Positions 2,665-29,894 of a stretch of 35,376 nucleotides of DNA are shown here, one piece after another. The translations under genes were made by a program, and so were the position numbers. The DNA is from a virus: positions 1-35,376 of the IMG/VR virus record IMGVR_UViG_3300043425_000570. One strand, 5' to 3'. The notes below the pieces were generated by a model that made no database searches, was not told the origin of the DNA, and was given only the letters and a program-made list of their open reading frames with translations. Every line of letters begins with the position of its first letter. The stretch's first letter is position 1.

Positions 2665-2737
2665 GCCTCCATAGCTCATCTGGTAGAGCGACGCACTTGT
2701 AATGCGTAGGTGACGGGTTCAAGTCCTGTTGGAGGCT
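2665..2737 (+). tRNA. tRNA-Thr (anticodon UGU)
   Basis: Acceptor GCCTCCA pairs with TGGAGGC (2730-2736), with discriminator T. D stem GCTC/GAGC, anticodon stem ACGCA/TGCGT around loop CTTGTAA, and T loop TTCAAGT. It has 73 bases. Confidence 0.95.
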
Positions 2738-2752
2738 CTCAGAAGGGGATTT

Positions 2753-3439
2753 ATGGAAAAGCCAGCAATAAGTACACAGCAAGCTAATAACTTTAATATT
2801 TGGTATGAAACAGAAGATCCTAACTTTATTGAAATCTCTATGAAATCCAATATTCCAAGAAATTGGCTATCTTATCAGAACATATTGATTGGCAGACATA
2901 AAGACTCTATCATTAAACCAATCAATAGGTATGTTGAAAGGCTTGTCCCATCACCAGAGCTAGTAAGTATTAAAGATAATATAGTTAGGCTTCGCCAGGG
3001 AAACCATGCAGAAATATTTTTATTAGAAAGGGATGATGGGTCATTCTACAACGTGGATAGGCCCTGGATGCGTCAATACTACAATACCTCGCAATCTGGG
3101 TACGATACTCCCAATGGATGCTTTCCAGGAGCTTATAAGTTCTATGTTCCTTGGATATTAGATGAGTCAGCTTATGTAAGTATAGAGCCTGTAGAGGATA
3201 GCCCTTTTTATGTATATCCACAAGCTATGAATTGTCATCCTATAGAAAAAAGTTTAGAATATCTGCATCCGTTCTTTGTTCCATTTCATTTTAAAAGGCT
3301 AGGTGATCATATGGTAACGGAAAAATTTGGCAAAATAAAAAGACAGTCCCCAATGTTTGACATGGTTTTTTCTGCAACTGATATAATGATAGATAGGATT
3401 AAGGAATTTTATGAAAAAGAAGAGCCATCAAATAATTAA
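2753..3439 (+). CDS. Hypothetical protein, first gene of the modification operon
   Basis: A 228-residue soluble protein. ATG 2753 is chosen because AGAAGGGGA lies just before it and an earlier in-frame start would begin inside tRNA-Thr. I do not recognise the family with confidence. Its C-terminal half (a VSIEPVEDSPF segment, then VPFHFKR and KFGKIKRQSPMFDMVF) has the same order of elements as the two proteins encoded next, where the parallel piece reads KGTPLxQxIPFxR, so it may be a diverged third member. It overlaps the next gene by 29 bases, which implies translational coupling. Confidence 0.7.
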   Translation: MEKPAISTQQANNFNIWYETEDPNFIEISMKSNIPRNWLSYQNILIGRHKDSIIKPINRYVERLVPSPELVSIKDNIVRLRQGNHAEIFLLERDDGSFYNVDRPWMRQYYNTSQSGYDTPNGCFPGAYKFYVPWILDESAYVSIEPVEDSPFYVYPQAMNCHPIEKSLEYLHPFFVPFHFKRLGDHMVTEKFGKIKRQSPMFDMVFSATDIMIDRIKEFYEKEEPSNN

Positions 3440-4151
3440 GTTTTATCCCCTAAACGATAAGACCATAACCTTTACACCAGAGCCAAAGCCAGCATCTAAA
3501 GCAATTCCAGAATGGTACAAGCAGCAGCCAGGAACTATGGATAACGGAGAGTCATTATCTAAATTTGGACAGCCTACCAATACTGTAAAGAAATGCTTAC
3601 CAATCTTTGATGCCATTACTGCTGGATATATTTTAGTTGCACCATCTGACATTTTTATTGATGCCTCAGATCCAGAAAAGCTTACCTATCAAATACCAGC
3701 ACCATTGTCTCCATTCAAGGCAGATCTATTCGCAAGTCACGAGAGAAAGCAGTATAGCTATCTTCCAATGCCAGCAGAGGTATATCACCAAGACCTTCTC
3801 AGAATTATGCCATTTTGGATAGCATCTACTCCACCAGGATACAGTGCACTGTTCCTTGATCCAATAAATAGAGACATTTCTCCACTAACAGCAATAACTG
3901 GAATAATTGATACAGATGGCTATCCATCGGATGGACACTTCTCATTTAAGGTCCAAGCTGGCTTTGTTGGTGTAATTAAGCAAGGAACTCCTCTAGTACA
4001 GATCATTCCATTTAGAAGGGAAGACTGGAAGATGGAAGTGGCTGACCCACAAGAGTCAGAAGGCTTCCTCAAAAAACACAGAATGAATCTTAGAAGCACT
4101 TTTAGTAATGGATATAAAAATAAGTTTAGATCACCAAAGGAGTATAAGTGA
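3411..4151 (+). CDS. Phage protein of a DUF6065-like family, copy 1
   Basis: A 246-residue protein, a clear paralogue of the next gene. Shared signatures run in the same order: IPEWYK or VPEWYR near residue 35, KKCLPIFDAITAGY or TKMCMPYFDALTAGY, TPPGYS, SGIVDSD or TGIIDTDGY, and GTPLVQIIPFRRDxW. This set resembles the family I recall as DUF6065 in environmental phages; no enzymatic function is known to me. ATG 3411 has AAGGA upstream. It ends in a TGA that overlaps the GTG start of copy 2. Neighbours are oxygenases and glycosyltransferases, so a role in the same modification system is likely but unproven. Confidence 0.75.
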   Translation: MKKKSHQIIKFYPLNDKTITFTPEPKPASKAIPEWYKQQPGTMDNGESLSKFGQPTNTVKKCLPIFDAITAGYILVAPSDIFIDASDPEKLTYQIPAPLSPFKADLFASHERKQYSYLPMPAEVYHQDLLRIMPFWIASTPPGYSALFLDPINRDISPLTAITGIIDTDGYPSDGHFSFKVQAGFVGVIKQGTPLVQIIPFRREDWKMEVADPQESEGFLKKHRMNLRSTFSNGYKNKFRSPKEYK

Positions 4152-4921
4152 ATGACCAGCCACTCAATATCACCTTTATTCCATCTTATTTGAAAAATGG
4201 TGAAACTCCTTATCTAAATGCTGAACCAGCAGTTAAGCATGTTCCAGAATGGTATAGGTCATTAGCTCGCCACGACGTCTCTAATAGTGATATAACTTTA
4301 AATCCTCAAAACCACATTGGCACTGACGGAGCCCAGGTATCTACAAAGATGTGTATGCCATATTTTGACGCACTTACTGCTGGATACTACTATTGCTTAG
4401 AAGATGATTTATACGTTGATATGGATGAGCTGGGGCACCCAATTCTTTCTTGGAAGGGTGATACCATGCTAGTCGATACAAGGCCAATATTCGATGTTCC
4501 CCTGCCAGACAATTGTCATCCAATACACTATGGCTGGAGAATGACTTGGTATTATGAAACTCCGCCAGGGTATTCTGTCCTAATAACACATCCTATGAAT
4601 AGACATGAGCTTCCATTCTACACCCTATCAGGAATAGTCGATTCAGATATCTGGGGCCTTCCAGTTTTTACTGCATTCTTTTTGAAGCGTAATTTTCGTG
4701 GAGTAATTCCAAAAGGAACTCCACTATTTCAGATGATTCCTTTTAAAAGAGATAGTTGGGAACTAAAGGTAGATCCTTCTCCAGAGTCTATGGATGAGCA
4801 TTGGTTTAGAGCAGAGAATAGAAGATCAATGCTTTATGGGTATTACAAAAAAGTTGCTTGGAGAAAAAAGTTTTTTGGAATTTTCGGCAAAAAAGAAAAA
4901 GAGGTAAACCACGATGACTAG
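4148..4921 (+). CDS. Phage protein of a DUF6065-like family, copy 2
   Basis: 257 residues, beginning at GTG 4148 with AAAGGAG a few bases upstream. It carries the same ordered motifs as the preceding gene: HVPEWYRSLA, MCMPYFDALTAGYYY, ETPPGYSVLITHPMNR, SGIVDSD, and PKGTPLFQMIPFKRDSWE. Compared with copy 1 it has a longer basic tail (KKVAWRKKFFGIFGKKEKE). The two copies differ substantially outside the motifs, so the duplication is not recent. It overlaps the next start by 8 bases. The function is unknown. Confidence 0.75.
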   Translation: MNDQPLNITFIPSYLKNGETPYLNAEPAVKHVPEWYRSLARHDVSNSDITLNPQNHIGTDGAQVSTKMCMPYFDALTAGYYYCLEDDLYVDMDELGHPILSWKGDTMLVDTRPIFDVPLPDNCHPIHYGWRMTWYYETPPGYSVLITHPMNRHELPFYTLSGIVDSDIWGLPVFTAFFLKRNFRGVIPKGTPLFQMIPFKRDSWELKVDPSPESMDEHWFRAENRRSMLYGYYKKVAWRKKFFGIFGKKEKEVNHDD

Positions 4922-5777
4922 TGCCACAATTTCTATAATTTTAGTTGGTTATAAAGATAAAAATTTACACAATGCTGCCATCCATCTAAAAAATGTAACA
5001 GTATCAGATAACTTTATTCACGTGTTTGATCAGCACCCAATTGTGCATTCAAAAGAATTTTCTGAAATTCCTAACTGCCACTACGAGCATAGAATTTGGG
5101 ACAGCATGAAGGGGCCAGCCTATAGAAGAGCTACAAAAGTATTTGATACTTCTGGAGAAGCAGATTATGTCTGCATAATTAGTCCAGACATAGAGCTAAG
5201 TCATGGTTGGGATCTAGAATTAATCTCGAGATTGGGTACCTCAAAAACTATTTTTTCTGGTTCTGGAAATGCTATCGTAAAGCAAAAGGATCTTTTTTCA
5301 ATTGGAGTGGATTATGAACCATCTGACTCTTATTCTCTAACACAAATAGTTGATCGAAACTTTATATTTGGAAGAACAGAATCTTTTGCAGAAATTGTTA
5401 TGCCAGACTTTTTGAAGTACCATGGAGAAAATGAGTATCTGTCTATTGCTTTCCTGTCAGCAGGGTACTCAATAATGTCTATCCCGTCTCAAATGTATAC
5501 AGACTCTAAAGAAAGATCCGTTGAAAATATGTATCACACATTCTCTTTAGAGCATAACTATAACGTAGTAATTGATTTGCTAAATTGTAAAAATGTTTCC
5601 AGGTACAAGATTACAGAGAGTGCCGTAAAAAGCTTTTTAAGCTTTCATCAAATAGATATCTCTAAGATTCATCGTTTACCATACAATGCAGACGACGTAC
5701 TTTACGACCCATATGACCTTAAGATGCACAAGATAGATGCAAGAAGATTCTTAACTGGCACAAAAGCCATTTATTGA
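4914..5777 (+). CDS. Glycosyltransferase, GlcNAc-transferase-like (Skp1 GnT1 family)
   Basis: A 287-residue GT-A-type protein. N-terminal SIILVGYKDKNLHNAAIHL is the nucleotide-binding strand. WDSMKGPAYRRA (62-73) matches the GPxxAR segment of the family, and YVCIISPDIELSHGWD (85-100) matches the metal-binding segment that reads DSHMxFxxxWD in the paralogue at 8460-9410. Family knowledge: PF11397-type enzymes include the polypeptide GlcNAc transferase that modifies hydroxyproline on Skp1. Here the usual DxH/DxD is SPD, so metal use or activity may differ. Two P4H-like oxygenase genes follow directly, which makes a hydroxylate-then-glycosylate pathway plausible. Confidence 0.7.
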   Translation: MTSATISIILVGYKDKNLHNAAIHLKNVTVSDNFIHVFDQHPIVHSKEFSEIPNCHYEHRIWDSMKGPAYRRATKVFDTSGEADYVCIISPDIELSHGWDLELISRLGTSKTIFSGSGNAIVKQKDLFSIGVDYEPSDSYSLTQIVDRNFIFGRTESFAEIVMPDFLKYHGENEYLSIAFLSAGYSIMSIPSQMYTDSKERSVENMYHTFSLEHNYNVVIDLLNCKNVSRYKITESAVKSFLSFHQIDISKIHRLPYNADDVLYDPYDLKMHKIDARRFLTGTKAIY

Positions 5778-5783
5778 TATAAT
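5775..5783 (+). promoter_or_regulatory. Extended -10 promoter inside the operon
   Basis: TG-A-TATAAT (5775-5783) spans the end of the glycosyltransferase gene. A start near 5790 would give a roughly 10-base leader containing GGAGAA before ATG 5800. No clear -35. Confidence 0.5.
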
Positions 5784-5799
5784 TTACTAGGAGAAGAAA

Positions 5800-6399
5800 A
5801 TGCACAGAATTCACATAATTGATAATTTTATTGACCCAGAGGATGCAGCAATCCTAATTGAGGAACAGTCTCGCCCATCTGAGATAAACCCTTATCCAGA
5901 ATACTATAAGGAGCGTTTTGGTGGCACAGCCTTCCCATACAATAAGCGTGTTATGGATCTTTTAGTTAAGTATGGTAGAAAAGCTAATGATGTTCACAAA
6001 GAGGTTAATGGCTTCGTTAACCCTATTTATGTATTTAAAGCATTTGGGTCTGTCTGGGCTCCAGGAACAAAAGGCAGCCTTCACATAGATGCTCAAGGAC
6101 CAGAGCCATTTATAGAGTTTAGTACAATTATCTATTTAAATAGCCCAGACGAATACGAAGGTGGAGTTATCTATTTCCCAAATCAGGATTTTGAGTATAA
6201 GCCAAGACAATATTCAGCTGTGTTTTTCCCCTCAGCTGGGTCTGAATATATTCATGGAATAACTACTGTAACTTCTGGCATGAGAAATACAGCATTATAT
6301 ATGCACACAAGCTTGCCAAACCACGCTGATCCAGACTTCCACTCACAGGAGGAAACTGCTGTCTGGGCAGCAAGAGAAAATAAGAATGTGAGTAAATAA
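5800..6399 (+). CDS. 2OG-Fe(II) oxygenase, prolyl 4-hydroxylase-like, copy 1
   Basis: 199 residues with the double-stranded beta-helix signature: His95 and Asp97 (LHIDAQ), distal His152 (YIHGITTV) and Arg162 (GMRNT), which binds the 2-oxoglutarate carboxylate. FSTIIYLN (near 107-114) and GGVIYFPNQ lie at the usual places. Such enzymes use O2 and 2-oxoglutarate to hydroxylate a protein side chain or small molecule; substrate prediction is not possible from sequence. AGGAG precedes ATG 5800. It is followed within 1 base by a second oxygenase of only moderate similarity. Confidence in the fold is high and in the substrate low. Confidence 0.88.
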   Translation: MHRIHIIDNFIDPEDAAILIEEQSRPSEINPYPEYYKERFGGTAFPYNKRVMDLLVKYGRKANDVHKEVNGFVNPIYVFKAFGSVWAPGTKGSLHIDAQGPEPFIEFSTIIYLNSPDEYEGGVIYFPNQDFEYKPRQYSAVFFPSAGSEYIHGITTVTSGMRNTALYMHTSLPNHADPDFHSQEETAVWAARENKNVSK

Positions 6400-6400
6400 G

Positions 6401-7048
6401 ATGGATTATAGGGTATTGGATCTTGGTCTTGTTTACTATAAGAATGTTATTCAGGAACCACAACTTTTAATAGATGCGATAGAAGAACTTAATGTAAGAT
6501 TCTTGGCAAAAGAGCATGTGAATGATGCACGAACTGTGGTAAGAGACTGGACTCCTTGGTCATATGGAGAGATGATATTTAATTATCAAAAGTTTTTCCC
6601 AGAGGCAAAAGATATTTCAGACACAGACTACTATGCAAAAGAAATGAAGCATATTGCCAATGTTCTTTATGGCTCATTAGATAGGGCATTTGCTCATTAT
6701 TCGCAGCAGCTTTATCCATTTGCTGGCAAAAATATTAAGACCAGAGAACAGAGTATACATCTTTTGAAGTATGGTGTTGGTGGCCATCTACCAGCACATC
6801 AAGATCAGGGTATTAGCTCTAGAGTGCTTTCTACCGTTATGTATTTGAATGATGACTATCTGGGCGGAGAGATCGAGTTCAGGCAGTCTGGAGTCAAAAT
6901 TAAGCCAGAAGCTGGAAGCATTATATTTTTCCCATCAAACTTCTTGTATGTCCATGAAGTTTATCCAATTACAGAAGGATTTAGGTACTCGATGCCACAC
7001 TGGTACCACAATATGTATAACCCTATTAATTCGAATGGGAACGAATGA
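6401..7048 (+). CDS. 2OG-Fe(II) oxygenase, prolyl 4-hydroxylase-like, copy 2
   Basis: 215 residues. The iron facial triad is His133, Asp135 (AHQDQG) and His185 (YVHEVYPI), with Arg195 (GFRYSM) as the 2OG anchor. The strand STVMYLNDDYLGGEIEF and the SIIFFPSNF turn are typical of P4H proteins. It most resembles the reverse-strand copy at 15384-16094 (shared DDYxGGELEF-like block, KIKPxAG, YPVT/YPIT). The start follows the previous stop by one base and its end overlaps the carbamoyltransferase start by 4 bases, so the three genes are translationally coupled. The likely role is hydroxylation of a side chain used by the neighbouring transferases; that is inference. Confidence 0.88.
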   Translation: MDYRVLDLGLVYYKNVIQEPQLLIDAIEELNVRFLAKEHVNDARTVVRDWTPWSYGEMIFNYQKFFPEAKDISDTDYYAKEMKHIANVLYGSLDRAFAHYSQQLYPFAGKNIKTREQSIHLLKYGVGGHLPAHQDQGISSRVLSTVMYLNDDYLGGEIEFRQSGVKIKPEAGSIIFFPSNFLYVHEVYPITEGFRYSMPHWYHNMYNPINSNGNE

Positions 7049-8457
7049 AGATTCTAGGCTTTAATGAGACATCTCATGACGCAGCCATGTCTTTAATTGA
7101 CGATAATGGAAATATCTTGTTTGCTGGTCATGCAGAAAGATATAGCAAAAGCAAGAATGACTGGTACACTAATGGTAATCTTTTGGATGATCTTGTCAAA
7201 TACGGAAGCCCAGACAAAATAGCCTATTACGAAAAGCCTTACCTCAAGAAGCTTAGGTTGTTGCTGGGTGGGTACGCAGATTGGAAGCCTAATGTCAAAT
7301 ACGACCAGTCTTTTAGGCATCACCATTCTCATGCAGCAGCAGGGTACTATACCAGTCCATTTAGAGATGCTGTAATTGTAGTCCTTGATGCTATCGGTGA
7401 GTTCACAACAAGTTCTGTTTGGATCGGTGATGGTGACAAAATAACTCTGCATAAAAAATGGAATTATCCATTTAGCTATGGCCTATTCTATTCGGCATTT
7501 ACAGATCTCATTGGTCTCAAGGCTAACGAAGAAGAGTACATCATGATGGGCATGGCTGCTTATGGTGACCCAGACCTATACTATGAAAAGGTTGAGGAGT
7601 ATTTCCCAGCAGTTTACAAGCAGAAATATAACTTTCACAAAGGTATCTATGACTGGGGACAGGACATTACAGCAAATGATAAATTCCATATAGCCGCTGC
7701 TGTGCAAAGGGTATACGAAGATAGGCTGTGGGATTTTATGTACATAGCCAGACAAGAATTAGATAGTTCAAACCTAGTGTTCATGGGTGGCTGTGCACTT
7801 AACAGTAAAGCTAATACTATGCTGTGGGACATATTCCCAGATGTATGGATTATGCCTAATCCAGGAGACGCAGGAAGCTCTCTAGGAGCTGCTGCAGCTA
7901 TGCATGGCAAGCACCTAAATTGGCAAGGTCCATATCTAGGCCACGATCTCGGCGGAGAATACCCAGTAGATAAAATCTTTAATGAAATTATGACAAAAAA
8001 GATTGCAGCAGTAGCCACTGGAAGAGCAGAATTTGGTCCAAGAGCCCTAGGAAATAGGAGTATTCTAGCTGACCCACGTGACCCAGATATAAAGAATAAA
8101 GTTAATAAGATAAAGAAGCGTGAAGAGTTTAGACCATTTGCTCCAGTAGTTATGGAAGAATATGCTTCAGAATGGTTTGACATGCACTATGCAAGCCCTT
8201 ATATGCAGTACACGCCTAAGTGCCTAAAGCCAGAGCTTATCCCGTCTGTTGTTCACTATGATGGAACTTCCAGGGTACAGACAGTAAATGCTAATCAGCA
8301 CCCAGGGCTATACGCACTACTAAAAAAGTTTTATGAAGAGACTGGAGTGCCAATATTACTGAATACTAGCCTTAACATTAAGGGTCAGCCATTATTAAAT
8401 GACGAAGAAGACATTAACAGGTGGCAGAAGATGTATGGACAGGATATAATTAGATAA
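7045..8457 (+). CDS. O-carbamoyltransferase (NodU/CmcH family)
   Basis: 470 residues. N-terminal MKILGFNETSHDAAMSLID is the ASKHA-fold opening of this family, and HHHSHAAAGY (near 93-102) gives the conserved histidines of the Kae1-like domain that binds metal and carbamoyl-adenylate. GGCALNSKAN, PGDAGSSLGAAA and, in the C-terminal YrdC-like-substituting domain, GPRALGNRSILADP follow in the normal order. The reaction is transfer of a carbamoyl group from carbamoyl phosphate, with ATP, to a hydroxyl of a sugar or antibiotic. It is shorter than most NodU proteins (usually above 550), mainly at the C-terminus. Here it probably decorates a glycan or a hydroxylated group made by its neighbours. Confidence 0.88.
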   Translation: MKILGFNETSHDAAMSLIDDNGNILFAGHAERYSKSKNDWYTNGNLLDDLVKYGSPDKIAYYEKPYLKKLRLLLGGYADWKPNVKYDQSFRHHHSHAAAGYYTSPFRDAVIVVLDAIGEFTTSSVWIGDGDKITLHKKWNYPFSYGLFYSAFTDLIGLKANEEEYIMMGMAAYGDPDLYYEKVEEYFPAVYKQKYNFHKGIYDWGQDITANDKFHIAAAVQRVYEDRLWDFMYIARQELDSSNLVFMGGCALNSKANTMLWDIFPDVWIMPNPGDAGSSLGAAAAMHGKHLNWQGPYLGHDLGGEYPVDKIFNEIMTKKIAAVATGRAEFGPRALGNRSILADPRDPDIKNKVNKIKKREEFRPFAPVVMEEYASEWFDMHYASPYMQYTPKCLKPELIPSVVHYDGTSRVQTVNANQHPGLYALLKKFYEETGVPILLNTSLNIKGQPLLNDEEDINRWQKMYGQDIIR

Positions 8458-8459
8458 TT

Positions 8460-9410
8460 ATGGTAAATAAAGATAAAACAATTTTTATAACTATTCCAGC
8501 ATATGAAGATCCGCTGTTATTGCCAACAATTAAGGGTGCACTAGATAACGCTTTAAATCCAGATAGATTGTTTTTTTGTATTGGCATGCAGTATGCTGAG
8601 CTTCCAGATATCTCTCCATATATAAACAATCCAAACTTCAAATTTTTATTCTATGAGGTTAGCAAAAGACCAGGAGTTTATTGGATAAGAAGAGAAATGG
8701 CAGAGCAGCACTCTGGCCAAGACTATTTCCTAATGCTAGACTCCCACATGACATTCTCTAAAAATTGGGATGCAAAGATTATAAATGATTATGAGGACCT
8801 TGTTCGGAGACACGGACAAAGAACTATTATGTCCACATCTTTGTCTCCGCAGCCAGCCGATACTTATGAAGATAACACCATAACTCTTAAGACTTGCTGG
8901 AAGGTAAACTGGGGATTTGAGCCAAAAAGCATAGAGAGAACCGTTATCCCTGGATATATTCATGCCCCATGGGATGGAGAAAGATACCAAAAAACCTTAT
9001 ACTCCTGCAGCCATTTTTTCTTTACAAATAAAGACTATCTGTCGGACGTTGGATTTCACCAAACAATACGCTCATACTCAGAAGAGTATACGATTGCAGT
9101 AACAACGTTTTTGTCTGGATGGGACTACTATCGTTTGCCAGAGTTTGCACATCTTGGGCACAACGATAGCCCAACGGCAAGAGCTATATATAAAAAAGAT
9201 AGATATACTTTGGCTGAAGGCAAGAGGTACCAAGCAATATTTGAAACACCAGAGGAAAAGCTAGAAATTGAAAAATTTGTTTTGCTTGATAACTCTAGTA
9301 TTTTTAAGGTAAAGAACCAGAGACGATCAATTGAGGACTTCTATGAAGAGGGTGGGGAAGATCTAAAAAATGCCAGAGACAAGTTCCTAGAAATATTCGG
9401 TTTAAAATGA
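8460..9410 (+). CDS. Polypeptide GlcNAc-transferase-like glycosyltransferase (Skp1 GnT1 family)
   Basis: 316 residues and the clearest member of the PF11397-type family in the window. IFITIPAYEDPLLLPTI (8-24) opens the Rossmann-like fold, LFFCIGMQY follows, RPGVYWIRREMAE (70-82) is the conserved GPxxAR-like segment, and YFLMLDSHMTFSKNWD (89-104) carries the DSH metal site. In eukaryotes this family adds GlcNAc to hydroxyproline of Skp1; related genes occur in phages. It is encoded two bases after the carbamoyltransferase and overlaps the RmlB-like gene, with P4H-like genes in the same operon. The donor sugar is unknown. Confidence 0.85.
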   Translation: MVNKDKTIFITIPAYEDPLLLPTIKGALDNALNPDRLFFCIGMQYAELPDISPYINNPNFKFLFYEVSKRPGVYWIRREMAEQHSGQDYFLMLDSHMTFSKNWDAKIINDYEDLVRRHGQRTIMSTSLSPQPADTYEDNTITLKTCWKVNWGFEPKSIERTVIPGYIHAPWDGERYQKTLYSCSHFFFTNKDYLSDVGFHQTIRSYSEEYTIAVTTFLSGWDYYRLPEFAHLGHNDSPTARAIYKKDRYTLAEGKRYQAIFETPEEKLEIEKFVLLDNSSIFKVKNQRRSIEDFYEEGGEDLKNARDKFLEIFGLK

Positions 9411-10411
9411 CAAAGAGAGTTTTAATAACTGGCGGAGATGGCTTTGTTGCTGCCCATGTCATGAAGAGAATACTGGACACTACCAATTGGGAGATTGTCG
9501 CTTTAACATTAAAGAGTCATTCGGAATTGCCAGCAAGAATTAGATTTGCCACAAGCAATGATGATTCTAAGTTTGCAAGAATATCCCTGATCTCGTGCGA
9601 CCTATCTGTGCCTATTTCTAGGGAAATGGCAGCTAGGTTTGGAAAGATTGATTACTTAATTAACTTAGCCAGCGAATCCCATGTGGATAGGAGCATCGCT
9701 GACCCAGCAAACTTTATCATCAATAATGTCCAAGTAATTTGCAACGTTCTTGACTGGGCAAGAGAATACAGGCCAGAAAAAGTTCTTCACGTGTCAACAG
9801 ATGAAGTTTTTGGCCCATACGACCAGCATAAATTTTTAGAGTGGGATACACATCTTCCAAGCAATCCATACAGTGCCTCTAAGGCAGCACAAGAAGATAT
9901 AATCTTTGCTTACTGGAGAACTTACAGTGTTCCAGTGTCAATCATCAATATTATGAATTTGGTGGGTGAGGCTCAGAATGCTGAGAAGTTTACGCCAATG
10001 GTAATTAACAAAATTATTAATGATCAGGAATTGGACATTCATACATATGATAATGGCAAAGTTGGTATGCGTTATTGGCTACATGCTGGTAATCAGGCAT
10101 CCGCATTGCTACATGTTTTGAGTTTGCCAATGGCTCTACCATCTGATAGCGAGAAGCCACATAAATTTAATGTTGGTGGGGATGCCGAATACTCAAACCT
10201 AGAATGGGCAGAAATAATTGCAACTATCATGGGCAAAAATATTAAGTACAAGCTTGTAGATTCTTCAACAGTTAGACCAGGGTATGACTCTAGATATGGA
10301 TTAAACAATTCTAAGCTTTTAGAATCTGGATGGGTTGCCCCATACAACCTAAATGAAGAATTACCGAATATTATTAAATGGTATATTGATAACCCAGGGG
10401 TGACAGAATAA
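9407..10411 (+). CDS. NAD-dependent sugar-nucleotide epimerase/dehydratase (RmlB-like)
   Basis: 334 residues, an extended short-chain dehydrogenase. GGDGFVAAHV (8-17) is the GxxGxxG dinucleotide site, ASESHVDRSI and STDEVFG are hallmarks of dTDP-glucose 4,6-dehydratases, and PYSASKAAQE contains the catalytic YxxxK. The likely reaction is formation of a 4-keto-6-deoxy sugar nucleotide. The N-terminal loop TLKSHSELPARI differs from classical RmlB (which has YAGN), so another NDP-sugar could be used. It overlaps the upstream and downstream genes and thus belongs to the same operon as the two GnT1-like transferases, for which it may supply the donor. Confidence 0.85.
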   Translation: MTKRVLITGGDGFVAAHVMKRILDTTNWEIVALTLKSHSELPARIRFATSNDDSKFARISLISCDLSVPISREMAARFGKIDYLINLASESHVDRSIADPANFIINNVQVICNVLDWAREYRPEKVLHVSTDEVFGPYDQHKFLEWDTHLPSNPYSASKAAQEDIIFAYWRTYSVPVSIINIMNLVGEAQNAEKFTPMVINKIINDQELDIHTYDNGKVGMRYWLHAGNQASALLHVLSLPMALPSDSEKPHKFNVGGDAEYSNLEWAEIIATIMGKNIKYKLVDSSTVRPGYDSRYGLNNSKLLESGWVAPYNLNEELPNIIKWYIDNPGVTE

Positions 10412-11238
10412 TGGCTCACCAAATGGAATCAATACCGTTAGTTCAGTTTTCTCCTTTTTGTCACGACATCGCCACCTTATATCCATCTTATGAAAAAATC
10501 CTAGACCCTAATAAAAAATTTGATTGGATGGATCCAGATAAAGAGTTAAACCTAAAACTATATAGATCCGACGAGTTCTCTAAGGATCATGGTAGTAAAA
10601 AGCATATACTTTTTTCTGGTTGTTCTGTAACTTATGGTACTGGACTTCTTTTAGAAGAAACCTGGACCCGTCAAATCTGGCAAACTCTGCAAGACACTTC
10701 TGGGTATTTTAATCTTGCCATGGAGGGCAATAACATTTCAAACATGGTTTTTGAAATAATAAAGTACTGCTCTATTTATGGAAATCCAAATACGATTGTG
10801 CTCAATCTGCCAGATCCATATAGATCTATGCAGCCAATGCCTGGAGGCAGTACTAACTTCATATTTGACAGGCCAAAATTTGACAATAAGAAGAATATGC
10901 CACTAGACAGTGAGACAGAATTGCTAAAGGCTAAGCTTGAGCTAGCAGTATTTCAGTCATATAAAGTACTAGAGCTTTATTGCAAAAGCCACAACATAGA
11001 GCTATATTCATTTAGCTGGGACATGAAGACCGAAGATCTATTCGGTAGCCCTGATTTCCCAACATTCTTTAAAATAGACCAGGGCTGGCTTGCTGCAACA
11101 ATGGTAGAGTACCTAGAACTTAACCCAGACAAAGAAGAGTTTTCTATTTACGCAAGGGACCAGGCAAAGCATCCAGGTACCGCCTACCACTATGCTTATT
11201 TTAAGTTCATAAAGCAGATAATTAATAATGCTATCTAG
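10411..11238 (+). CDS. SGNH/GDSL-hydrolase-like protein, copy 1
   Basis: 275 residues. HILFSGCSVTYGTG (65-78) resembles block I of SGNH esterases with Ser72 as nucleophile; FNLAMEGNNISNM gives the Gly of block II and the Asn of block III; and ARDQAKHPG near 248-256 has Asp and His in the block V position (spacing DxxxH rather than DxxH). A homologue with the same blocks is on the reverse strand at 16739-17644. The family may remove or transfer acyl groups on glycans. Assignment is by motif only, and the block V spacing is unusual, so activity is uncertain. It starts on the last base of the preceding stop codon and closes the operon. Confidence 0.6.
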   Translation: MAHQMESIPLVQFSPFCHDIATLYPSYEKILDPNKKFDWMDPDKELNLKLYRSDEFSKDHGSKKHILFSGCSVTYGTGLLLEETWTRQIWQTLQDTSGYFNLAMEGNNISNMVFEIIKYCSIYGNPNTIVLNLPDPYRSMQPMPGGSTNFIFDRPKFDNKKNMPLDSETELLKAKLELAVFQSYKVLELYCKSHNIELYSFSWDMKTEDLFGSPDFPTFFKIDQGWLAATMVEYLELNPDKEEFSIYARDQAKHPGTAYHYAYFKFIKQIINNAI

Positions 11239-15383: not shown

Positions 15384-16094
15384 TTATTGACCAAAGTTTG
15401 AAGCAAATACATATTTTAAATCAGCCTTGTAAAAGCTATTCTGGCTAATAGCTTTGTGTCTGTTTTGAATTTCTTGATTGCTCATCTGATTAAAAAAGGT
15501 TACCATTGTTCTTCTATATCCACCACCAGTGACTGGATAAATTTTGTGTTCATAGCTATATCCTGCAGGGAAAAGAAATAACTGCCCAGCCTTTGGCTTA
15601 ATCTTTACACCAAAATGAATAAACTCAAGCTCACCACCCTCATAGTCATCATTCGGGTAATAGACTAGAGATGTAGTTCTGGGGGTAGCAAAAGAGTCAT
15701 CTGGGTGCATTCCAAAAAATTCTCCGTTAGGTTCATATCTAGTTATCCTAAGAGACTCACGGCTGTGTGGATCTAGATCCCAGTGCCACAAATAAGAATC
15801 TACGACTTCTTCTAGATTGTCCTGTACCTCTTGGTCGTGCCATATCCAGCATGTACGACTTTTCTTTCCAACTAGATCGTCTAGATAATCTTCCCGAATC
15901 CACTTCTTATTCCCAGGAGCTGGGTTATCTTCCCAGTATTGGTCTCCGTCTACCTTTTCAAACCACTCTAAAGAGTTTGGCCAGACATTGCTATAAATAT
16001 GAACACCTGGAATTGGTGACTCATAGCTAAACTTATTTCCTTTACGGCTTTCCGTAACATTATTAGCATGATTTTGTAGTTTTTGGCTATCCAT
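15384..16094 (-). CDS. 2OG-Fe(II) oxygenase, prolyl 4-hydroxylase-like, copy 3
   Basis: 236 residues from the start at 16094, chosen because AAGAAGGA and an extended -10 lie just upstream; a longer frame would read through that promoter. Iron ligands are His130 and Asp132 (MHPDDS) and His183 (YEHKIYPV); Arg194/195 anchors 2-oxoglutarate. LVYYPNDDYEGGELEF and KIKPKAGQLFLFPAG closely parallel copy 2. It stands alone between a terminator and its own promoter on the reverse strand, divergent from hsp20. The substrate is unknown; protein side-chain hydroxylation is the family norm. Confidence 0.88.
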   Translation of the reverse strand: MDSQKLQNHANNVTESRKGNKFSYESPIPGVHIYSNVWPNSLEWFEKVDGDQYWEDNPAPGNKKWIREDYLDDLVGKKSRTCWIWHDQEVQDNLEEVVDSYLWHWDLDPHSRESLRITRYEPNGEFFGMHPDDSFATPRTTSLVYYPNDDYEGGELEFIHFGVKIKPKAGQLFLFPAGYSYEHKIYPVTGGGYRRTMVTFFNQMSNQEIQNRHKAISQNSFYKADLKYVFASNFGQ

Positions 16095-16116
16095 TAATCC
16101 ATCCTTCTTAACAAAA

Positions 16117-16125
16117 AGTATAGCA
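16117..16125 (-). promoter_or_regulatory. Extended -10 promoter of the reverse oxygenase gene
   Basis: On the reverse strand TG-C-TATACT, followed by a leader of about 15 bases with AAGAAGGA before the start at 16094. The same TGCTATACT occurs on the reverse strand before the dehydratase gene at 26212. Confidence 0.65.
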
Positions 16126-16140
16126 TAATTGGAATTTCCT

Positions 16141-16149
16141 TGGTATAAT
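16141..16149 (+). promoter_or_regulatory. Extended -10 promoter of hsp20
   Basis: TG-G-TATAAT (16141-16149), predicted start near 16156, giving a leader of about 49 bases before ATG 16205. It is divergent from the oxygenase promoter 16 bases away. Confidence 0.65.
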
Positions 16150-16178
16150 ATATATGCCTGCCAAACGGGGGCAATTAA

Positions 16179-16196
16179 CTCGCTTAATATAAGGAG
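16179..16196 (+). promoter_or_regulatory. Hairpin burying the hsp20 Shine-Dalgarno (possible RNA thermometer)
   Basis: The Shine-Dalgarno AAGGAG (16191-16196) is fully complementary to CTC (16179-16181) plus CTT (16183-16185), with one bulged G (16182) and the loop AATAT. The stem is short and bulged, as in heat-opened 5' leaders of small heat-shock genes. ATG 16205 lies eight bases beyond. Confidence 0.45.
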
Positions 16197-16204
16197 ATGA
16201 TAAC

Positions 16205-16621
16205 ATGGTATACACACGTACACCACATGTAGGAAGAGACCTGCTTTTCCCATTCGGAAGCCTTGCTCAGGAATTTGAGAAGGTATTCGCAGAGCCAGTA
16301 AAGGCCACTTACCCACCATATAACATCAACAAAATCTCAGACGAACACTATGTTCTTGAGTTTGCTGTTGCTGGATTTAATCGTGGGGGCATTGATATCT
16401 CAGTAGAGAAGGATGTGCTAACAATCAAGGGTGAGCGTCAGGAGGACGAGGGGGCAAACTATATCCACAAGGGTATTGCAGCTCGCAAGTTTACTCGCTC
16501 ATTTAATCTACCAGAGTATTTTGAGGTAGATCGTGCAAGTATGCTGGATGGCATTCTGTATATTGATCTATACAAGAATGTTCCAGAAGAAAAGAAGCCT
16601 AAGAAGATTGCTATCAAGTAA
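16205..16621 (+). CDS. Small heat-shock protein Hsp20 (IbpA type)
   Basis: 138 residues. YPPYNI (near 37) opens the alpha-crystallin domain, AVAGF and KGERQ lie in it, and YIHKGIAARKFTRSF (82-96) is the hallmark seen in IbpA and in phage Hsp20 proteins. The C-terminal KKIAIK supplies the I-x-I anchor used in oligomerisation. It acts as an ATP-independent holdase. Phage copies are common in cyanophages, where they are thought to aid virion protein folding. It has its own promoter and a leader that can hide the ribosome binding site. Confidence 0.93.
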   Translation: MVYTRTPHVGRDLLFPFGSLAQEFEKVFAEPVKATYPPYNINKISDEHYVLEFAVAGFNRGGIDISVEKDVLTIKGERQEDEGANYIHKGIAARKFTRSFNLPEYFEVDRASMLDGILYIDLYKNVPEEKKPKKIAIK

Positions 16622-21912: not shown

Positions 21913-22113
21913 ATGCACGACCACGAACACGAATCTGTTCTTGACACAATTGTAGAAGTAACCTTTGGCCTAGAGCACATGGTTTCAGAGTTTTTCTGGA
22001 ATGCAGTATTTTTAATTGTTGGCTACGCAGTATCTAAAGCAATCGCTTTGCGTAAGATCCACAAATATATCGATGATAAGCACGGTGTAACTCACCAGAA
22101 GGATGAATACTAA
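21913..22113 (+). CDS. Small membrane protein with His-rich N-terminus
   Basis: 66 residues from ATG 21913, preferred over the in-frame ATG 21898 because AGAGGA lies between them. The N-terminus MHDHEHES is rich in His and acidic residues; one membrane helix spans about 30-46 (WNAVFLIVGYAVSKAIAL). I do not recognise the family. Driven by a consensus promoter and followed by groES. Confidence 0.65.
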   Translation: MHDHEHESVLDTIVEVTFGLEHMVSEFFWNAVFLIVGYAVSKAIALRKIHKYIDDKHGVTHQKDEY

Positions 22114-22114
22114 A

Positions 22115-22405
22115 ATGAGTATTAAGCCACTAGAAGATAAGGTAGTCTTAGAGCTACCTCAAAAAGAAGAAAAGAAGACCGAGTTTGGACTTATCATTGC
22201 AGGAGCAGCTGATGAGAAGCCACAGGAAGCCACTGTAGTAGCTGTTGGTCCTGGAGCAACTTTTGCAGATGGTAGCAAGATGGAGATCGATCTAAAGGCT
22301 GGAGACAGAGTTATCTTTTCAAAGTATCAGGGAACAGAGATTACTCACGAGGGCAAAGAATATCTTATCATTGCATACCGTGACATCTTTGCAGTGATTG
22401 GTTAA
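22115..22405 (+). CDS. groES: GroES-like co-chaperonin
   Basis: 96 residues from ATG 22115 (MSIKPLED), the usual GroES opening; an earlier in-frame ATG at 22103 sits too close to AAGGA. TVVAVGPG, LKAGDRVIFSKYQGTEI and EYLIIAYRDIFAVIG match the GroES beta-barrel. The mobile loop (EKKTEFGLIIAG, near 19-30) is present, so it can cap GroEL. No groEL gene is nearby; like T4 gp31 it probably replaces host GroES to fold a phage capsid protein. Confidence 0.92.
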   Translation: MSIKPLEDKVVLELPQKEEKKTEFGLIIAGAADEKPQEATVVAVGPGATFADGSKMEIDLKAGDRVIFSKYQGTEITHEGKEYLIIAYRDIFAVIG

Positions 22406-26279: not shown

Positions 26280-28208
26280 TTGTCAAGAATATTAGTATTA
26301 TCTTCAACCCCAGATCCGTTTTCAGAAAACCATGGGGGTAAGCAGCGACTTGTAAAGCTGGTCACGTATCTGTCAAAGAGACATTCTGTTACTCTGCTAT
26401 CGCTTAGCTGGGAGGGTCAGGAGTTTAGAAAAGAGATATCCGAAAGCCTAATACATGTATCAGTTGCAGTAGAGCCAGAGGTTCTTCGTGCAGCTAGGGG
26501 CAGGACAACCCTGAAGAAGCCAAACAATGATACCAGAATTGCATACTTTAAGAGATACTTTAAAAATTACAGGGCAAAGCTGAGGGATCTGGCAGAGGTT
26601 CACGACATCATTGTCGTAGACCATTACGCAACAGCACCACTTGTCAGCTCTGTCAAGAATGACATTCCAATATTCTACTCCTCCCAGAACTTTGAGACAG
26701 ATCTCGCTAGCCAGGTATTTCCAAAAAGATCTGAAGACATAAGAATAATAAATGAAACTGAGAAAGATATTATAGATAGGTCATCTGCAATAGGATATTG
26801 CTCAGTGGATGACTTTGAAGCAATGAAGTCTCATTTTATTATCAATAAGCCAGCATACTACATTCCAAATGGAAATGACATTGTCCCTGGCATATCTGCT
26901 GGAGCTGGCCAGAAGTCAAATAGGATCATCTTTATTGGAAGCGGTCACCCACCAAACATTATTGCAGCAGAAAGAGTTATAGGGTTGGCAAAAATGGTTC
27001 CAAACTATGACTTCGTAATAGCTGGATCCTGCGTTGGTGGAATTGACCACTTACCTTCACCAAAGAACCTTATCAAGATAAAAGAAATTAGCAATGATGA
27101 AGTGGAGGACTTGTTCTCCAAGGCGTTTGCTTTTATCAATCCGATGAAGTCTGGCTCTGGAACACACCTCAAGATGATGAAGGCCCTTAGCTATGGTCTA
27201 CCAATTATATCGTCGCCAGTAGGAGCCAGAGGATTTTCTGATGCAGAAAAGGATAGCTGCATGGTTATCTCCGAGAGCCCAGAGGAAATGGCAAAGGCTA
27301 TAAAACTTATTAGCGATTCTGCGGTATATAAGAAGATGTCTGAAAGATCCCTAGAGCTTTCAAAAGACTATGACTGGAAAAAAATCGGGGAGGCGTTCAT
27401 CTCTGCGATTGAGCAAACAATAGCAAATAAAAGAAAGGGTCTGCCCATGACACAGGTTGAAGCTAACAATGATCCAAAAAAAGAAAAGATTCTACTATAT
27501 TCAATTATTAGAAATGAAAGTAAGTATATAGATTCATATCACAAGAAGCTAAACAACATTGTTAAGAACTTTCCAAACTATGAATTCTATCTCTCTATAT
27601 ATGAAAATGATTCTACTGATGACACCAAACAAAAGCTACAGAGCAAAGACTGGTCAGCATTCTCTAGAGTATCTTTGATTCTTGAGGATCTGCAAACCAA
27701 GTTTTATGGCTCTGTCAAAGACGGTGATCGAGTCAAGAATCTGTCTATTGCCAGGAATAAGGCTATCGAGGCTGGTGGCTTTATTAATGATGTAGATTAC
27801 GTCATGATGGTAGAAGCAGATGTAGAATTTGACATGAATACGGTGTCCAGGATTCTTAGCTTTAAGAATGTTGTGCCAGACTTTGATATTGTTTCTGGAA
27901 TAACTATTCGCAACAAGAGACTTTACGATCAGTGGGCTACCAGGAAGCAGCCAGTGTACGACGAGGGCATCTACCCAATAGAAGATGACTATAAGATGAA
28001 GGCTTATGATAGATATTATTCTACTTCAAATGGTATTTGTCTATATAGAGCCAAACCATTTCAAGAAGGAATTAGGTATGGCTGGATAAATAAGGTCACT
28101 AATGAATTCGACTGTGAAATGGTTGTCGTTTGCCAAAGCTTCCACGATGCTGGCTATAACAATGTCTATATAATCCATGATGCTGAGATATATCACGAGC
28201 ACAAGTAA
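26280..28208 (+). CDS. Bifunctional glycosyltransferase (GT4-like plus CAP59/CMT1-like)
   Basis: 642 residues from TTG 26280, with AGGAG six bases upstream. Residues 1 to about 385 form a GT-B enzyme: HGGKQRLVKLVTYL near the acceptor side, GSGHPPN, and the donor motif SGSGTHLKMMKALSYGLP. After a linker, residues from about 400 (LLYSIIRNESKYIDSYHKKL) resemble fungal CAP59/CMT1 alpha-1,3-mannosyltransferases: IARNKAIE and YVMMVEADVEFDMNTVSRIL with the acidic metal site, then STSNGICLYRA. It could add two sugars in succession. It is divergent from gmd, whose GDP-sugar product could be a donor. Confidence 0.78.
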   Translation: MSRILVLSSTPDPFSENHGGKQRLVKLVTYLSKRHSVTLLSLSWEGQEFRKEISESLIHVSVAVEPEVLRAARGRTTLKKPNNDTRIAYFKRYFKNYRAKLRDLAEVHDIIVVDHYATAPLVSSVKNDIPIFYSSQNFETDLASQVFPKRSEDIRIINETEKDIIDRSSAIGYCSVDDFEAMKSHFIINKPAYYIPNGNDIVPGISAGAGQKSNRIIFIGSGHPPNIIAAERVIGLAKMVPNYDFVIAGSCVGGIDHLPSPKNLIKIKEISNDEVEDLFSKAFAFINPMKSGSGTHLKMMKALSYGLPIISSPVGARGFSDAEKDSCMVISESPEEMAKAIKLISDSAVYKKMSERSLELSKDYDWKKIGEAFISAIEQTIANKRKGLPMTQVEANNDPKKEKILLYSIIRNESKYIDSYHKKLNNIVKNFPNYEFYLSIYENDSTDDTKQKLQSKDWSAFSRVSLILEDLQTKFYGSVKDGDRVKNLSIARNKAIEAGGFINDVDYVMMVEADVEFDMNTVSRILSFKNVVPDFDIVSGITIRNKRLYDQWATRKQPVYDEGIYPIEDDYKMKAYDRYYSTSNGICLYRAKPFQEGIRYGWINKVTNEFDCEMVVVCQSFHDAGYNNVYIIHDAEIYHEHK

Positions 28209-29342: not shown

Positions 29343-29894
29343 ATGACAATTAAGATAATTCACAATTTTTTAACTAGCAAAGAGTCAGACAAGATTATTG
29401 ACTTTATCAATACTAACCAGAACGGCTTTGTCCATAACGAGGGTAGTCGTAGATTTTTATTACGCTTCGGCCATGATGACGAGATGCCAGGCCAATCAGT
29501 TAAGGATATGTCAGTGGTATCGTCCATAAAAGAAGATCTTGTGGATATCTTTAAAAGAGTCTCTTCCATGATCCAAGACGAAGTTTATTTAACTTCTTGG
29601 TTTTTGTCAAAACAGTATCCTACTGGAAAGCTTTTTCCACATTTTGACGGACAAGATGGTGGACCAAATAGCCAGCTAGACTACACAGCAATGCTATATC
29701 TAAATACCCTAGACAATAATGGCACAATATTTTTCCCAGACGCTGGTTTTGGACTTACCCCACAAGCTGGTGATCTAGTTATTTTTAAGTCTAAAAAGGA
29801 CATTCACGAGGTTTTAGAGGTAAAACAAGACAGATACTCTATTAACCTCTGGTTTACAAAAGACAAAAAATTTGAATTTTCTGACTTGAATTAG
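29343..29894 (+). CDS. 2OG-Fe(II) oxygenase, prolyl 4-hydroxylase-like, copy 4
   Basis: 183 residues. IIHNFLTSKESDKIIDFI is the usual P4H N-terminus. Iron ligands are His100 and Asp102 (PHFDGQ) and His155 (DIHEVLEV); Arg164 anchors 2-oxoglutarate. YTAMLYLNTLDNNGTIFFP and TPQAGDLVIF complete the jelly-roll. It is the most distant of the four copies and is transcribed alone from an almost leaderless promoter. The substrate is unknown. Confidence 0.88.
   Translation: MTIKIIHNFLTSKESDKIIDFINTNQNGFVHNEGSRRFLLRFGHDDEMPGQSVKDMSVVSSIKEDLVDIFKRVSSMIQDEVYLTSWFLSKQYPTGKLFPHFDGQDGGPNSQLDYTAMLYLNTLDNNGTIFFPDAGFGLTPQAGDLVIFKSKKDIHEVLEVKQDRYSINLWFTKDKKFEFSDLN

Follow-up and report, generated by a model that had tools for sequence, protein, structure and literature searches.

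The hydroxylase and glycosyltransferase genes that stand side by side in the window analysed here, the 35,376 bases of the single IMG/VR record IMGVR_UViG_3300043425_000570, form a genuine and recurring pairing. They belong to a conserved unit with the usual order g2729 - DUF6065 (one or two copies) - GTa - P4Ha - P4Hb, the parts of which can be split, and a carbamoyltransferase (CarbT), an SGNH-like protein, a second glycosyltransferase (GTb) and a methyltransferase are its variable, accessory neighbours. P4Ha and P4Hb are oxygenases of the prolyl 4-hydroxylase (P4H) type, and we tentatively propose that the unit works as a module that hydroxylates and then glycosylates a fibrous or surface protein encoded by the phage, a possible reading rather than a probable one. 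The genes concerned are as follows.

2729..3439, plus strand: g2729, DUF6065-like protein that opens the recurring unit
3411..4151, plus strand: DUF6065a, phrog_7084 at 1.3e-43 and DUF6065 at 0.0018, the latter below the cut-off
4148..4921, plus strand: DUF6065b, phrog_7084 at 1.2e-29, modelled with a dUTPase-superfamily fold
4914..5777, plus strand: GTa, predicted GT-A-fold protein of the PF11397 (GT60) type with an eroded metal site
5800..6399, plus strand: P4Ha, P4H-type 2-oxoglutarate/Fe(II) oxygenase, PF13640 at 1.3e-6, above the 27-bit cut-off
6401..7048, plus strand: P4Hb, P4H-type 2-oxoglutarate/Fe(II) oxygenase, PF13640 at 2.4e-16, above the 27-bit cut-off
7045..8457, plus strand: CarbT, NodU/TobZ-type O-carbamoyltransferase, PF02543 (N-terminal) at 3e-41 and PF16861 (C-terminal) at 3.9e-54, accessory
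8460..9410, plus strand: GTb, PF11397 at 1.1e-15 (58.5 bits, cut-off 21), accessory
9407..10411, plus strand: NAD-dependent sugar epimerase/dehydratase, PF01370 at 9.8e-40, accessory
10411..11238, plus strand: SGNH-like protein, GCS-type motif by eye, no match in Pfam or PHROG, accessory

The TTG at 2729 falls inside tRNA-Thr (2665-2738), and the ATG at 2753 is the likelier start of g2729. The open reading frame (ORF) coordinates in the initial annotation of this DNA were all correct, with the genes on one strand and neighbours overlapping or almost touching; the gene unit that it drew had omitted three upstream members of the recurring unit (2729-4921: g2729, DUF6065a and DUF6065b).

The arrangement was found again in dozens of divergent phage contigs, more than chance would give. 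Around P4Ha (73 loci, 67 recovered with P4Ha and six with GTb as bait; same strand, within 4.5 kb, loci with short flanks included), the neighbours were P4Hb in 69 loci, GTa in 65, CarbT in 65, DUF6065b in 62, g2729 in 60, DUF6065a in 44 and GTb in eight. Because P4Ha itself had served as the bait, the sampling was repeated in reverse. The broad alignment of GTa relatives (A1) was too diverse for scanning, and a set of nine relatives (A10) was therefore used; among the 31 loci analysed, P4Ha and P4Hb were present in all 29 whose downstream flank was 2 kb or longer. Fifteen of the 31 were already in the P4Ha set and one of the 16 new contigs was dropped for its short flank, leaving 15 in which P4Ha, P4Hb, DUF6065 and g2729 were each present without exception (15/15), with CarbT in 3/15 and SGNH in 2/15. 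The expected co-occurrence of P4H and PF11397-type genes in related phages is thus borne out from both directions. The DUF6065 bait recovered 79 loci, 66 of them on contigs that the P4Ha set lacked, and the 61 that were scored contained GTa in 35, P4Ha in 32 and P4Hb in 27.

CarbT behaved differently as bait. Removal of 22 loci with less than 3.8 kb upstream from the best 80 of 572 left 58, in which SGNH was the commonest partner (41) and GTa (14) and P4Ha (13) were rarer, a distribution that rules out CarbT as a core member. The bounds first given to the unit, from one glycosyltransferase through two P4Hs and CarbT to the other, consequently do not hold: GTb is found at few P4Ha loci and CarbT is a separate module. 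Likewise, the CarbT gene is genuine, but the carbamoyl decoration envisaged within the same module would belong to an independent one that mostly lies beside SGNH. Six further loci have the order methyltransferase - P4Ha - P4Hb - CarbT, with GTa and DUF6065 not within the flank. The idea that the methyltransferase replaces GTa was dropped, as GTa is located elsewhere on the two longest of the six contigs (98 and 55 kb); on the 55 kb contig the order g2729 - DUF6065 - DUF6065 - GTa stands at the end (locus L290). The unit parts are split in these phages, not replaced. It is from the counts with the P4Ha, GTa and CarbT baits, together with the methyltransferase loci, that we describe the unit as usual but splittable and CarbT, SGNH, GTb and the methyltransferase as variable.

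Both oxygenases that the initial annotation had called P4H-like retain an intact iron triad and the 2-oxoglutarate residues. The HxD motif of P4Ha (95/97), H152 and R162 are retained in 29/29 alignment rows, and in P4Hb the HxD motif (133/135) and H185 are found in 30/30 rows, with R195 in 28 and a lysine in its place in two. By sequence, the closest solved relative of P4Ha is prolyl 3-hydroxylase 1 (1.4e-8), and those of P4Hb are bacterial prolyl 4-hydroxylases (4.7e-9), with the collagen-modifying enzyme LH3 among the weak matches. P4Ha has no close relatives among isolated phages, where the search returned only 11 cyanophage matches (37% over 44% of P4Ha). Oxygenases of this family can be abundant in a single phage: 11-15 PF13640 matches per contig, partly in tandem arrays, were counted in G048, G037, G039 and G056 (the records of loci L131, L106, L111 and L169).

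The description of both glycosyltransferases as PF11397-type is right for GTb outright and for GTa at the level of its family. GTa alone matched nothing in Pfam or PHROG at E 0.1, but 22/37 aligned relatives matched PF11397 individually (listing limit E 0.1, best 4.2e-10), and the GTa and GTb profiles aligned to each other with an hhalign probability of 98.7 (E 1.6e-16); the label is therefore valid for both families. As had been anticipated, the AlphaFold2 model of GTa (predicted local distance difference test score, pLDDT, 88.4; predicted template modelling score, pTM, 0.86) has a GT-A fold. Its best match is polypeptide GalNAc-transferase 2 (Foldseek 3.1e-10; Z 20.3, root-mean-square deviation 3.0, 240 residues aligned), and COLGALT1, TarP and LH3 are among the lower-ranked matches. 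Searching PDB sequences with the profiles of GTb, GTa and DUF6065 produced nothing usable, and among isolated phages no close relative of the single GTa protein was found.

Of the two glycosyltransferases, the one that usually accompanies the P4Hs has no complete DxD or DxH motif. The metal motif is intact in the accessory GTb (D94xH96 in 14/14 rows), and in GTa the first Asp is absent from 37/37 rows, replaced by S, G, T, N, A, C or Y. Judged from its sequence, GTa may be a metal-independent, unusual or inactive enzyme. At one extreme it would be non-catalytic, with GTa and the DUF6065 proteins serving as binding or assembly factors, for instance for fibres, and the P4Hs acting alone. The eroded site, which reads NPN in four rows and has Q at position 172 in six, would fit such a role, as would a mean column identity lower than that of P4Ha (42% vs 62%) and the 11 of 17 fibre-flanked DUF6065 loci without any P4H by profile. 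We nevertheless consider it unlikely, since in the alignment an Asp is shifted one residue later in 24/37 rows (two later in 14/37), E174 is retained in 30/37, the fold is well predicted, and some GT-A enzymes function without a DxD motif.

DUF6065a and DUF6065b both belong to phrog_7084, a PHROG of unknown function, and g2729, which gave no match in Pfam or PHROG searches, is related to them through its family profile (hhalign against the DUF6065 profile, E 3.8e-5, probability 70.7). A motif in DUF6065 had hinted at dUTPase, and the AlphaFold2 model of DUF6065b (pLDDT 80.1, pTM 0.74) is in keeping with this, the top PDB hits being a dCTP deaminase and dUTPases (Foldseek 5.6e-4; VIA Z 10.4, root-mean-square deviation 5.3, 128 aligned), and the named top viral structural matches are dUTPases. 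The model thus points to a dUTPase-superfamily fold for DUF6065b, which DUF6065a would share by homology. In a motif-3-like stretch, as we take it to be from the dUTPase motif, D/E165 and D167 are retained and the customary tyrosine is not. The canonical dUTPase family PF00692, unlike the fold, is not represented: it was found in 0/25 contigs carrying the unit, DUF6065 or P4Ha relatives, which argues that DUF6065 is a diverged branch of the dUTPase/dCTP deaminase superfamily. DUF6065 relatives are carried by haloviruses, among them HF2, whose gene lies close to ribonucleotide reductase, and by two Synechococcus phages; the five DUF6065 loci in bacterial genomes contain no glycosyltransferase, P4H or CarbT by profile, a direct reading of the neighbouring genes covering one of the five, and the open-licence literature searched yielded no paper on DUF6065.

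A dUTPase-like fold invites the thought that the unit modifies nucleic acids or nucleotides in the manner of TET and 5-hydroxymethylcytosine (5hmC), with DUF6065 handling the nucleotide, the P4Hs oxidizing the base, and the glycosyltransferase and CarbT decorating it. Besides the fold and the HF2 neighbourhood, ThyX and a deoxynucleoside monophosphate kinase are encoded in the window, and CarbT is of the same NodU/TobZ type as a published phage 5hmC carbamoyltransferase that accompanies a ThyA homologue (PMC8670742). Unlike that system, the 25 unit- or P4Ha-bearing contigs scanned for DNA-modification families (45.8-123.5 kb, all possibly incomplete) contained the ThyA family PF00303 in 0/25 and PF12851 above cut-off in 0/25 (sub-threshold in 18), in addition to lacking PF00692, and Tet_JBP above cut-off was not found in the unit of the window. 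The possible incompleteness of the contigs means that this explanation is weakened rather than closed, and we regard it as improbable.

In the hydroxylate-then-glycosylate reading that we put forward, P4Ha and P4Hb would hydroxylate side chains (Pro, Lys or other) of an extended phage protein, e.g. a tail fibre or a secreted surface protein, and a GT60/GT27-like glycosyltransferase would place a sugar on the new hydroxyl, this being GTb where present and otherwise GTa, with its non-canonical metal site, or another glycosyltransferase. Carbamoyl, methyl and SGNH-dependent groups would be optional later decorations, and the DUF6065 proteins, by their predicted fold, may bind nucleotide, nucleotide-sugar or the substrate. 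What the initial annotation had suggested along these lines stands as far as the gene pairing recurs and the folds and triads fit, but not in respect of the metal site of the usual glycosyltransferase, which is eroded. The main rival, itself a real though somewhat doubtful possibility, is that a glycan is built or decorated, either host surface polysaccharide or a virion glycan, with sugars or lipids being hydroxylated and groups added, for example to block superinfection. The window encodes much that would suit it: two sugar epimerase/dehydratase genes, a Methyltransf_24 gene, weak Stealth and sulfotransferase-like genes, and a GT4/CAP59 fusion. CarbT, whose closest matches are small-molecule O-carbamoyltransferases, keeps company mostly with SGNH, and GTb-like and CarbT genes adjoin in Xanthomonas phage XacN1. 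Against this, the unit itself turns up where CarbT, SGNH or sugar-nucleotide genes are missing, as the low CarbT and SGNH counts on the new GTa-bait contigs illustrate, and both P4Hs are nearest to protein hydroxylases. The XacN1 locus (L083, 215777-230499) is that of an unrelated jumbo phage, in which the GTb-like PF11397-type gene is followed directly by a 765-aa carbamoyltransferase, and the fusion in the window (26280-28208) measures 642 aa and combines a GT4 domain with a mannosyltransferase domain of the CAP59/Anp1 type.

For the hydroxylation and glycosylation of a fibrous protein, the neighbourhood of DUF6065 genes offers a clue to the substrate. GTa was absent from 29/79 DUF6065-bait loci, and fibre-like genes lay within ~6 kb in 17/29 of these (L302, L304-L308, L310-L312, L318, L323-L327, L330 and L332). 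Tested genes received a PHROG tail, fibre or virion label in L302, L304, L305, L307, L308, L310, L311, L312, L318, L325, L327 and L330; the fibre calls in L306, L324 and L326 are based on motif or resemblance, and the genes of L323 and L332 tested against PHROG received no tail, fibre or virion label. A P4H was detected by profile in 6/17 fibre-flanked loci vs 1/12 of the other GTa-free loci. Two loci that turned up without selection for P4H or glycosyltransferase combine all of these elements: the row of genes in L312 runs from a collagen-like fibre through two more genes to a DAH-bearing PF11397 enzyme, two copies of DUF6065 and a P4H, and L330 joins fibre genes to DUF6065 copies, a P4H and a PF11397 enzyme whose motif is likewise DAH. 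Two other genes in such positions encode a protein of 344 aa in which GHYGGF/GHYSNF repeats occur, flanked by a tail-fibre gene and two DUF6065 genes (L307:3428-4462), and, by eye, a tryptophan-halogenase-type flavoprotein with fibre genes on one side and a DUF6065 pair on the other (L318:4136-5728).

A second candidate lies upstream of the unit. L010, in which this phage is represented by a longer contig, encodes upstream of the window a protein that looks secreted and contains long runs of PTPEP/QPEP (L010:2611-4227), and in the P4Ha-anchored set at least 12 Pro in 50 residues were found in 38/306 upstream plus-strand ORFs (at least 150 aa) vs 0/815 other ORFs. Counting the proline-rich family itself, 35/43 ORFs (some partial) in the P4Ha set attain 12 Pro in 50; in L015, L037 and L053, for example, which have the full cassette, the family member stays below that level. 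Among 27 contigs examined from the alignment of this family (A8), GTa was found in two (one strong) and PF13640 in 16, and proline richness was greater in the PF13640 contigs (16 vs 11, p 0.004, by a statistic that ignores relatedness). An ATT, ATA or ATC codon preceded by a purine-rich, Shine-Dalgarno-like sequence appears to begin the gene in 11/12 relatives (L012 unclear), a putative start that would thereby restore the signal peptide; the non-ATG-start genes are L010:2578-4227 and its relatives in L015, L017, L019, L023, L026, L033, L039, L040, L053 and L055.

Several findings weigh against the proposed module. Besides the missing first Asp of GTa, the P4Hs are not universally adjacent to GTa, since the methyltransferase-type phages hold P4Ha and P4Hb apart from it, and the sampled phages are kin, with several close relatives per set, so that the counts do not represent independent events. 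In L312 and L330 the fibre genes encode little proline, at most 1-8 Pro per 50 residues, an argument against prolyl hydroxylation there; the collagen-like repeats of L312 are Thr/Gln-rich. Within the group of phages to which the window belongs, a phrog_454 fibre was found in only 8/25 unit-bearing contigs, ~36-66 kb from P4Ha. The proline-rich neighbour as an obligatory substrate failed its control, as its family is widespread without the unit: among 53 A8 loci having 8 kb or more of downstream sequence, the complete unit was found only in L096 (the L020 contig) and parts of it in L098, L102, L158 and L159. A narrower version of the proposal, a hydroxyproline-glycoprotein pathway in which the P4Hs hydroxylate a proline-rich or collagen-like protein (tail fibre or upstream stalk protein), GT60/GT27-like enzymes glycosylate it and DUF6065 acts as partner, must accordingly be rated quite unlikely; by analogy, and with as little likelihood, it would be a phage counterpart of plant extensins and Skp1.

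Hydroxylation followed by glycosylation is carried out on collagen by LH3 and COLGALT1, both among the structural matches of GTa and the former matched weakly by P4Hb, and mimivirus L230 performs the two steps like LH3. In LH3 and L230 the oxygenase and glycosyltransferase can share one polypeptide, unlike the separate ORFs of the window. In Dictyostelium and Toxoplasma, Skp1 is modified by the prolyl 4-hydroxylase PhyA and the GT60 enzyme Gnt1 (PMC8724618, PMC6939170). The resemblance lies in the pairing of a P4H with a PF11397/GT60-type glycosyltransferase and in soluble enzymes with no targeting domains, whereas the phage unit differs in having two P4Hs, DUF6065 partners and an eroded metal site in GTa. 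The Skp1 pair is a fair analogy for the gene identities, the reactions being predicted. No phage hydroxylase-plus-glycosyltransferase system was described in the open-licence literature searched. Were the proposal correct, machinery hitherto associated mainly with eukaryotes and one giant virus would serve phages in making structural or surface proteins that bear hydroxyl groups and sugars, part of the many P4H-type oxygenases of environmental phages would acquire a role, and DUF6065 would gain a fold and a context.

The window (GC 39.5%, 10 tRNAs) is probably a fragment of a longer phage genome, because the 45.8 kb record IMGVR_UViG_3300047476_001079 encodes identical proteins (100% identity) and reaches further upstream. 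Genes for WhiB and RtcB are present, and WhiB points to an actinobacterial host; published Nanopelagicales phages likewise encode WhiB and glycosyltransferases (PMC10202952). A subtilase-like secreted protein, labelled by eye and without a match in Pfam or PHROG, is encoded at 588-1364. Two PF13640 oxygenases additional to P4Ha and P4Hb lie at 15384-16319 (minus strand) and 29343-29894 (plus strand), and a GroES (Cpn10) homologue (7.7e-31) is found at 22103-22405.

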